Origin: Mesostigma viride
Taxonomy: Eukaryota; Streptophyta; Mesostigmatophyceae; Mesostigmatales; Mesostigmataceae
Direction: 5' to 3'
DNA length: 64,000 bases
Assembly (NCBI GenBank): GCA_009746045.1
Contig: RPFO01000156.1
Span: 5,749,900 to 5,813,899 of the forward strand
Shown: piece after piece, positions 24,599-49,573 of the stretch
Numbering within the stretch: the stretch's first letter is position 1
Layout: the number at the start of each line of letters is the position of its first letter
Made by a program: the position numbers and the translations under genes
Notes under the pieces: generated by a model
What the model was told of the DNA's origin: nothing
Database searches by the model: none
The model's input: the letters and a program-made list of their open reading frames with translations, nothing else

Positions 24599-24772
24599 AT
24601 GGCGGATAGCGCTGCTACACTGTGTTCGTCGGCGCAAGAGGCCGTGGCTGTTCTTCTGCGGGGTACGGACTCTGCGAGGCGTCATGCGGCCAACGAGTGG
24701 ATCAACATGGTAGCGGCCTCCCCAACGGCTAGCTGGATGGTGGCCACCGAGCTTTGCAAGAGCCCTGATCAG
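24599..24772 (+). CDS. Importin-like gene, exon 1
   Basis: 58 codons from ATG 24599, ending SPDQ before donor GTCAGC (phase 0). The context CAAG-ATGG at the start is favourable. Helical N-terminal HEAT-type sequence with an ANEWINMV segment like the importin-beta N-domain. Confidence 0.82.
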
Positions 24773-27700
24773 GTCAGCCCTGCATGTTATCAAATCGTGC
24801 TGGCGCGTTATGTTGGTTGGTCTCCTTTTTTTTCCCGTCCGCTTCCTTACAGCTGTCTGTGACATTCCGGCTCGCAAGCCGCTAGCAAGTAAGTGCGGGG
24901 TGCTAAGCTCCCCGCACGTCATTCCCCGTCTGGTGAAGGCACGTAATCCCCTTTGCTAGGGCTGGCACATCCGGGTCTTTTCTCGACCCGGACACGAACA
25001 CGAACCTCTGGGGAGAGTACCCGAACACGAACACGAACATGTTTGGTACATTCCCAGGTGACCCGAACACAAACACGAACATGTACTGTTTGGGGTTAAG
25101 TGACCCGAACCCGAACCCGACTATCACCCGAACATTTTACCGAACAGGAACAATGAGACAACTATACATAGTTTGTTGTCACTTTTCATAATTGCCCTAT
25201 ATACTACGTTGTTGTCTCACTTCATACTATTAATGATTACGTAATCATTACCTAAACTAGTCCGGTCGTGCTTAGACAATTCTACTACCGTACAACAGCC
25301 TTTGCTCTTGCCAGCGTTTCGGCGGACTAATCTAGGCTTTTTTATCAGAGAAGCGTTGCTGAGTCGGCTCACTGGATGGTACTACAAGGATTCCGCCAGA
25401 AAATGTTCGGTACCGGGTCAGAGGCGAACATGTTCGCCCGGTTCCCAGGGTGACCCGAATACGGACACGAACATGTGCTGTAAGTTTCCAGGTGACCCGA
25501 ACCCGAACAGCACATGTTCGGCCGAACATTTTTGCCGACCCGGACACCGCACATGTTCGGTATTCGCCCGAACATGTCCGTGTTCGGTATGCGGCGGATG
25601 TGCCAGCCCTAGCCTTTGCTCCCGTGACGCAGCTGGAGTAGTTGCCTTGCTAATCCTGGCTTCCGCAATTTGTGCGGATATTCGCAGAGGCATGCTGCTT
25701 ATGCTATCTTCAGCACCGGAGACCGCGAGGTTTGTGGCATCCATCTGCGTGCTCACGTAGCCTCTCGGGAGGTGCCCTCCTTGGCACCTATAAATTGCGC
25801 AGACACACGTGGGCAACTGCCTACATTTGCGCGGCGTGTGGCCACTCAGTGGACACGTGGCATCTGCTTGCTGCTGGCAAAACAGCCGTGCCCAGTGTAA
25901 AGGGAGGGAATAAAGAGGGGAGGTGGTGCTATGCTAGTACCGATGCTGCCACCAAAATGGTAGGCCATGGCTGAGGGATATGGGGGGATGGGGGTGGGGT
26001 TGGCGAAGTGGGTTCAGGGCAGGGACGAAGTCATCCCCGTAATGTGCCCCTGGGTCAAATTCCTGAGCCAGCTTCATGAGTCCCTATGGGGGCCGGAAAG
26101 GTTATTGACGCGGTTTCCCGTTCATCCTGCAGGACCATTGCTTACTTTCCAGTAAGTATTACTTTCTCACCAGTAAGTAATCAGTGATCATGTGTGTGTG
26201 CCATACCGTACCTGCGCGTGCATGCGCGAGTATCCGCCACGCAGGCCGCCCGCTGTTACGGTATTGTTGCTGATATTGTTGTTATTGTTGTCATCGTCTC
26301 TTATTTTTCTCGATGCTCTCATTGCTATCATGGCTATTGCTATCGTGGCCCCCAGACACCTGGCTGTCCGGCCTCAGCGGTCCATATCTGTACCTCCAGT
26401 TTTTTGTTTTGTTCTTGTTTATAATAATACTCATACTGAAAGCAATAACAATAAAATTAGCGTTATTACTATGCTGCCCTGCATCACATGCTGCCCGACT
26501 GTCCGGCCTCAGCTTCTCATATCTGTACCTGCGAGTTCTTTTTGTTCTTATGAACCCCATGATTATCACATTCTGCCCCCGCAGGACATCCGGCTGTTCG
26601 GCCTGAGCATGCTGCTGGGCAAACTGCGGCGTGACGGCGCGCAGTTGTCCCACAGTGACCGCGATGCGCTGTATAATGCCTGTGTGGGGCAGCTGCAGGG
26701 CGTGACGGACGACAAGATAAGGACGCGGCTGGCCACCGTGACGGCGGCGGCAGCGGTCGCGGTGGGGGAGGACACGTGCCACCAGGTGAGTGGCTCCATG
26801 GGCGAGTAGGAGCAACCACAATAGGCTATTTCGTGTGGGTCAGGCTGTTTTGGGGGGGGGGTTAAGCTGCACAAACGTACCTACGTTCGGGGTTTCTTGC
26901 TTGCCACACCCTTCATCTCTCTTTGTACCCCCGACCCCTCCGTATGGGGCATCATTCCCTTGCAGTATGGGCCCCATCTCGGTTTATTTATTGTAGTGTT
27001 CTTGAGGGAAACCGATGTATGTTCAGTCCCGAAGCCGATGTTGTTTCTTTTCGTTTGGACGTCGCTTCATGTCTATGAGGCTCGTGTATTGTGTGATTGG
27101 TGATGGACGATATACTTTTTTGAGGCTCATTTGTTGCGCACGTGGGGACGGATCATACACTTGAATTCCCCTCTACTGCCTTCATGGTCTAGACAAACGA
27201 TCTAAGGAGTAAGGGCTTGCCAATACAAATCTGCTGGCACAACCTGGAGATGGATTCGTGCAGTCCTTACACCATGTGTGTGATGCACTCTGTTGATTTC
27301 CTTCATCTTAATAGTCGTGGACTGGGGAATCTGACCCCCGTGAGGAGAGATCGCCCTCGGTTACCACAGTTCTCTCTGTGAAAGTTGGACGTCGTGTCCT
27401 TTTCTCCTTTTGCCTTCCCCCCCGTTGCCCACGTTTCCTTTAGACTCAACGGACTCCCTCTGCTGACTGCTGGTGCTGTTCCTTTTGACTTTTGCGTTGG
27501 TGCCTACCACCCGGCGCATTGCGCCCATCACCCACCACCTGGAAACTATTGTCGGCCATCTGCCACCTGGCAACTGTTGTCTGCCACCCGCCACCTGGCA
27601 GCTGCTGGGCGATGCGGTGGAAGCCTTGGCACGCACGGGGGAGGGCCAGGGTGGCGTGGTGGCGACGGCGGTGGCGGTGTTGGTGGCAGTGGCAGAGGAA

Positions 27701-49378: not shown

Positions 49379-49496
49379 TTCTATATCATTGTCCATGCAC
49401 CCAAAGCAGCGCTCATTTGTGTGAGTGCTTGTTTTGTCGTTGCCCATGCCCACCGAAGGGGTTTTTTCTGTGTGAGTGCTTCTTACTATTAACAAG

Positions 49497-49573
49497 AACA
49501 GGAAGGGCTGCTTTGGTTGTGTGGGCTTTAAGAATTCTTAAAGCCCACAGCAAACAAAGCAGCTCTTCCTGTT
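49497..49573. repeat. Strong hairpin downstream of the importin-like gene
   Basis: Arms of about 36 bp (starting AACAGGAAGGGCTGC) mirror each other with few mismatches around GAATTC. It could be a small MITE, a precursor of small RNA or a 3'-end structure. Confidence 0.85.

Follow-up and report, generated by a model that had tools for sequence, protein, structure and literature searches.

Why do the edges of exons, together with their splice sites, reappear in the adjacent introns of the same gene? This question is raised by a gene in the window, that is, the whole 64,000-nucleotide stretch of the genome of the streptophyte alga Mesostigma viride analysed here (assembly GCA_009746045.1, contig RPFO01000156.1, positions 5,749,900 to 5,813,899 of the forward strand). 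The initial annotation had described partial copies of exon starts with their acceptor, or of exon ends with their donor, next to the real ones at most exons, and had proposed a local process that tandemly duplicates splice-site neighbourhoods.

The spliced model, with exons set by eye and by reading frame, comprises 14 exons on the forward strand (24599-49909) and gives a single open frame of 1299 codons plus stop. The exons are located at 24599-24772 (exon 1), 26585-26785 (exon 2), 27602-27730 (exon 3), 29058-29230 (exon 4), 30135-30322 (exon 5), 31279-31643 (exon 6), 32888-32973 (exon 7), 33970-34415 (exon 8), 35855-36004 (exon 9), 37269-38488 (exon 10), 40597-40885 (exon 11), 42250-42410 (exon 12), 49127-49364 (exon 13) and 49830-49909 (exon 14, stop codon included). 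In a protein search, the sole match among the 8000 best word-sharing candidates scored was the EukProt entry jgi/Mesvir1 Mv00859-RA.3 (99% identity, whole query). This annotated Mesostigma viride protein is identical to the model at 1297 of 1299 residues, and matches it from exon 1 to the C-terminus; as it requires, the exon 12 acceptor was set 15 nt upstream and exon 14 was added. Exon 12 also holds a second in-frame acceptor, 15 nt 3' of the annotated site (42250-42264), and the GC donor at 42410 makes intron 12 a GC-AG intron. The label "importin-like" is one that we take over from the initial annotation; it found no confirmation in PDB (first 690 residues) or in Pfam (those residues plus exons 11 and 13), where no relative was detected. 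A plasmid search with a 261-base query gave no match. The two differing residues, 5 and 6 (24611-24616, codons 5-6 in exon 1), are Ala-Ala in the window and Ser-Thr in the annotated protein, which is probably a strain difference: judging from passages of the two genome papers, the protein would probably come from strain CCAC 1140 (cf. PMC7027972) and the window from NIES-296 (cf. PMC6947507). If protein and window do come from different strains, the exon-proximal sites used in the model would be common to both.

To each exon edge corresponds a query of 40 exon and 10 intron bases, which was aligned to at most 1 kb of its own intron and compared with 200 dinucleotide shuffles. Strong direct copies (score at least 30) were found at 7 of the 26 edges, namely acceptors 2, 4 and 7 and donors 6, 7, 10 and 13, with z values between 6.3 and 29.7. 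The runners-up were acceptor 11 (z 2.7), acceptor 3 and donor 11 (both z 2.3). The z, p and control runs used 25 edges, exon 14 being absent and the acceptor of exon 12 lying 15 nt 3' of its final position. There, a score of 30 was reached in the own flank at 7/25 edges, but in none of the 25 reverse-complemented flanks, none of 288 comparisons with flanks of other exons and introns and none of 159 exon interiors; at a laxer score of 26, the corresponding counts were 7/25, 2/25, 4/288 and 2/159. The copies of exon edges are confirmed.

Six of the 14 exons are clearly affected (2, 4, 6, 7, 10 and 13), so that "most exons" was too strong. Both degenerate starts announced upstream of exon 2 were located, all features given here being on the forward strand: one, at 26346-26378, repeats the exon start with its acceptor (28/35 identical; edge z=6.3), and the other, at 26474-26513, has lost the AG (29/41 identical). 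At exon 4, two copied starts flank an 11-bp array (28297-28688, TRF); the first, at 28249-28281, keeps its AG (25/33 identical), and the second, at 28750-28783, has none (30/35 identical; edge z=12.5). The cascade of donors also read at this exon turned out to be a degenerate 13-bp GTGA-rich intronic array (29235-29437; TRF, 63% matches), and the exon end itself has no copy in its own intron (donor 4, z=-0.2). After exon 6, one donor copy is confirmed at 31713-31743 (TRF and alignment, z=9.5), within an 88-bp tandem unit spanning 31633-31793. At exon 7, the estimate of about four acceptors and four donors is borne out by three copies on each side in addition to the real sites. On the acceptor side, two copies at 32754-32788 and 32815-32849 (34/35 identical each) are accompanied by a degenerate one at 32663-32700 that has lost its AG (31/38 identical); on the donor side, copies 1 to 3 are located at 33017-33065 (46/50 identical), 33098-33145 (41/48) and 33179-33225 (38/47). 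The corresponding units are 61 bp (z=15.6) and 81 bp (z=29.7), respectively. A copy of the exon 10 end with its donor, at 38544-38584 (35/45 identical; z=11.2), had escaped earlier notice, and the two extra ends of exon 13, each with a donor, were retrieved at 49393-49426 (31/34 identical; edge z=13.2) and 49443-49477 (27/35 identical).

Two other exons fared less well. A threefold acceptor at exon 3 has a counterpart in a 28 bp x 2.7 repeat that reaches the acceptor (27529-27604, TRF), but this is marginal (p=0.05), the best match repeats just 6 exon bases, and the copied AG reads AA. The donor copy proposed at exon 5 amounts to a 14-bp match at 30564-30577, which is not significant (p=0.11).

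Large arrays are also found in these introns. Upstream of exon 6, a 26-bp array of 17 units (30774-31226, TRF) carries the acceptor-like motif CTGACAG, and many units score 8.1 as acceptors, compared with 9.8 for the real exon 6 acceptor, on a small matrix. After the exon 10 donor lies a 45-bp G-rich array of 35 copies (38719-40283), whose seven-G runs could possibly form quadruplexes. Most of intron 12 is occupied by a C/T-rich 16-bp array of about 350 units (43563-49083), which stops 43 bp before exon 13 and resembles a hugely expanded polypyrimidine tract.

The initial annotation implied that other genes of the genome should carry the pattern, and among the genes covered, this one and the kinesins, they do. 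Kinesin exons were located in the same genome by PF00225 (129 matches), and 20 stretches were taken. From adjacent matches, frame and splice score proposed 32 introns in 19 loci, of which 25 were kept (score at least 8.5); L051 was left out of the 19 loci as a duplicate of L044. Copies were detected at 13 of the 50 modelled kinesin edges; the reverse strand gave 0/50, and flanks of other genes 5/1148. A looser, one-sided modelling added 16 edges, of which 9 carry copies, against 0/16 in reverse and 6/232 at other loci; it passed over 10 loci that overlap modelled genes, 3 whose frame contains internal stops, and any edge whose splice site was unconvincing. Pooling the gene and the kinesins, a copy is present at 20 of 76 modelled edges, about a quarter, and the splice signal is usually part of it. 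At L042 and L035, it is the exon start, which we take to be the kinesin P-loop, that is repeated with its acceptor in the upstream intron. Going by the kinesin counts, many Mesostigma viride genes carry the pattern. L044 and L051 were also considered as diverged paralogs, but they differ by only two single-base gaps over about 5.5 kb and are uninformative in this respect; contig C622, which carries one of the pair, probably repeats part of C2 as a redundant assembly of one sequence.

Are these copies a property of exon edges? In the gene, copies were found for 57% of interior intron anchors when nine large arrays are included and for 10% without them, the edges standing at 28%, so that these figures, taken alone, lend themselves to both readings; in kinesin introns, 217 of 1040 interior anchors (21%) have copies, compared with 26% of edges. 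A stricter test, the self-alignment check set beforehand, consisted of self-BLAST of 37 introns with at most 150 bp of exon on each side, intron 12 (6.7 kb) being left out. A local repeat spans 12 of the 74 edges (9/37 donors and 3/37 acceptors), and the interiors of the same introns predict 12.8 with all repeats and 8.1 without high-copy arrays, or, at a laxer E-value, 13.6 with all repeats and 7.3 with low-multiplicity ones only. Hence, enrichment specific to the edges was not borne out: intron interiors are duplicated at a similar density. The same numbers leave room for an edge excess of modest size, up to about 1.5-fold. Exon interiors stand apart from both. None of the 1436 exon points lying more than 45 bp from an edge (within at most 150 bp of exon per edge) falls in a repeat, none of the 1139 exon windows beyond -40 does in a positional profile of the 76 edges, and in kinesins repeats cover 0.6% of exons as opposed to 26% of introns. 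In self-BLAST, copies reach at most 44 bp into the exon, even when they lie 100-400 bp away; in the edge-query alignments, two or more matches reach the 40-base exon limit of the query.

The copies are overwhelmingly direct. In self-BLAST of the introns, 103 matches were direct, of which 55 remain once arrays are removed, and 2 were inverted; an origin by inverted or templated insertion was rejected, as inverted copies are nearly absent. Clean adjacent tandem units do occur, of 88, 61 and 81 bp in the gene and of 70 bp in L047, where the remainder of the unit is identical. Contiguous matches, with a length/distance ratio above 0.8, make up 31% of intron-intron, 23% of donor-spanning and 17% of acceptor-spanning pairs, the others being spaced, and the median ratio is 0.40, 0.42 and 0.26, respectively. 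Since interior pairs show comparable spacing, it seems to belong not to the edges but to the general process or to later change in the intron, and one route is visible in L042, where a large AC-rich array lies between copy and exon. The core identity of edge copies ranges from 0.71 to 1.00, which indicates a range of copy ages.

Taken as a whole, these features are probably explained by short direct duplications that arise frequently, are purged from exons, and are tolerated in introns and across exon edges. Mesostigma viride DNA would often duplicate short segments directly, with matches of tens of bases and copies typically within a few hundred bases of each other, perhaps born as adjacent tandem duplications through error-prone break repair. 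Selection would remove the duplications that fall inside exons, and those inside introns would persist and decay. A duplication across an exon edge would keep the exon-proximal splice site, and would be tolerated because the mRNA stays normal as long as splicing keeps to it; the edge and splice site further out would then turn into neutral intron sequence. Further events would add copies, and later ones would separate some of them. An edge pair would be expected to diverge about half as fast as an interior pair, because one partner is held by selection, so that a modest edge excess would need no targeting.

Several observations fit the neutral reading poorly. Donors are hit more often than acceptors, the 9/16 extra kinesin edges exceed the 21% interior rate, and the kinesin profile is higher at the edge (0.19 and 0.15) than in the deep intron (0.09-0.13). 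In addition, the rest of the supposed unit shows no similarity (z below 2) in 13 of 20 edge copies, and at L033, L034, L037 and donor 13 it is unalignable despite a core identity of at least 0.91. Neutral decay of a contiguous unit should leave its remainder alignable in these four; L033, L034 and L037 also sit awkwardly with spacing as a general feature. The shallow reach into exons, the excess over expectation once arrays are removed, and the absence of direct repeats by BLAST from seven stretches of the window outside the gene count on the same side.

In a rival reading, a process is aimed at the splice junctions themselves, for example through breaks or template copying favoured at exon-intron borders, and places short junction copies in the intron. 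Sharply bounded, spaced copies that centre on the junction (L033, -18..+8; L037), a reach into the exon limited to about 45 bp, the 9/16 extra kinesin edges and a donor-side profile that peaks at 0.28 at -12..-2, compared with 0.11-0.15 deeper, all point that way. We nonetheless hold this reading to be unlikely. Edges do not stand clearly above interiors (12/74 against the 12.8 or 8.1 expected), acceptors show 0.07-0.09 at the edge and about 0.19 deeper, that is, no peak, and intron-interior pairs are spaced likewise. Slower decay of edge pairs would also predict a modest excess without any targeting. Over all edges, the profile stands at 0.18 and 0.15 at the edge, falls to 0.08 between +20 and +40, and recovers to 0.15-0.17 further into the intron. 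Splice-site targeting as a needed cause was rejected, edge coverage being close to interior coverage in the same introns. What remains of the original proposal is a local duplication process that does exist and puts extra splice sites beside real ones; its being aimed at splice-site neighbourhoods was not upheld. One can also imagine, although we judge it decidedly unlikely, a junction-centred copying of segments of about 20-60 bp, at donors more than at acceptors, in direct orientation, the copies landing at unconnected positions some 50-400 bp inside that intron and exon interiors being spared; breaks or RNA-DNA hybrids at the junction during splicing might perhaps be at its origin.

What would the cell make of the extra sites? 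Some are as strong as the real ones: on a small 13-site matrix, the three donor 7 copies score 9.3, 10.6 and 9.7 (real donor, 9.3), and both donor 13 copies score 8.2, like the real one. All 14 copied sites tested would cause a frameshift or a premature stop if used; the exon 6 donor copy, for instance, would add 88 nt, out of frame. The AG-less exon 3 and far exon 7 copies are among these 14; the second copies at exons 2 and 4 are not. It is the exon-proximal sites that agree with the annotated protein, i.e. the 5'-most donor and the 3'-most acceptor. Together with the frame-breaking nature of the copies, this points to a proximal choice: judging from this one protein, the cell seems to pick, from several similar sites, the one closest to the exon.

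A decoy effect of the copies is conceivable. That selection would keep them as decoys regulating splicing, for example through nonsense-mediated decay, seems to us quite improbable. Strong sites such as donor 7 copy 2 (10.6 against 9.3 on the same small matrix), the frameshift or stop at each of the 14 sites, and cores that are better preserved than the remainders in several pairs would suit such a role, but the AG has been lost in the second copy of exon 2, in exon 3, in copy 2 of exon 4 and in the far copy of exon 7, and intron interiors show a similar copy frequency.

Alternative coding isoforms, the other outcome raised by the initial annotation, are very improbable. Several near-identical donors and acceptors at exon 7 might be thought to serve as in tandem or mutually exclusive exons, and the EukProt entry has the suffix RA.3 and represents 5 member sequences. 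However, every one of the 14 tested sites would break the frame or bring a premature stop, the annotated protein fits the proximal sites, and no whole-exon copy was seen, with no repeat at any of the 1436 exon points deeper than 45 bp. Scarcely credible, finally, is similarity left by intron gain through tandem duplication of an exonic AG/GT segment: duplication and splice sites are involved, but such gain leaves a donor flank that is a copy of the acceptor flank, and in 37 introns no donor-to-acceptor match was found, donor copies matching donors and acceptor copies matching acceptors.

How does the process that we favour, frequent short duplication with purging from exons, compare to known systems? 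In rice, short tandem duplications by break repair were reportedly described by Vaughn and Bennetzen in 2014. For short local direct duplications, repair of breaks or of nearby nicks has been proposed by Schimmel et al. 2021 (PMC8355091); among known mechanisms, short tandem duplication by break repair comes closest. Like the tandem duplications attributed, in humans and in plants, to error-prone repair of double-strand breaks, the Mesostigma copies are short, local and direct; unlike them, they are dense (20/76 edges), and many are old and spaced, their origin in repair being presumed. In human, alternatively spliced introns are said by Zhuo et al. (2007) to derive from tandem arrays. There too, splice sites are multiplied by tandem repetition near exons, whereas in Mesostigma the annotated coding sequence contains none of the copies, and those tested would break the frame. 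Introner elements place a repeated sequence in many introns, and here also repeats are found in many introns of an alga, but the Mesostigma copies are local, with cross-locus matches of just 0/288, 5/1148 and 6/232. Duplication of tandem or mutually exclusive exons has no counterpart here, since no whole exon was copied with both splice sites (0/1436 deep exon points). Intron gain by tandem duplication is described for Drosophila (PMC2891723) and for potato RdRp (PMC4974935); in those cases, as here, the duplication takes in exon sequence and splice sites and leaves the mature mRNA unchanged, but in Mesostigma no new intron appears, and existing introns acquire copies of their own edges. Passages of the two Mesostigma genome papers report long introns, with repetitive elements making up 30.1% of intron space, and their intron, tandem and splice passages make no mention of exon-edge copies (PMC6947507, PMC7027972). 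Among the best-ranked open-licence papers, no report of the pattern was found.

If the rate holds genome-wide, thousands of exon ends would face competition from similar copies lying tens to hundreds of bases off, and Mesostigma would be a natural experiment on splice-site choice. The copies could also serve as a decay clock, in which the exon stays fixed and the intronic copy decays. For annotation, the lesson is that an exon-like sequence inside a Mesostigma intron need not be an exon.

In 14 random 3-kb stretches of the genome (16 drawn, 2 dropped as mostly N), direct local repeats cover 14% of bases (4% low-copy), with 80 direct and 3 inverted matches; in introns, 24% of interior points (11.5% low-copy) fall in repeats, a figure counted on points and not on bases. 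Within the window, seven stretches outside the gene, 21000-24400 not among them, contain no direct repeat by BLAST, which indicates that duplication rates differ by region; in 21000-24400, TRF lists short repeats. By a more sensitive measure based on alignment, the introns of the gene reached 56%, and ten stretches beyond it 0-6%. Much of the DNA outside the gene is retroelement-like by its reading frames, and the scarcity there could come from young elements or from a lower rate outside genes. No local direct repeats were detected by BLAST in 279-6800 and 10057-18300. Two stretches of the window, 279-8085 and 10056-18310, are closely similar to each other and retrotransposon-like, and the frames of 279-8085 match reverse transcriptase, RNase H, integrase and chromodomain families in Pfam.
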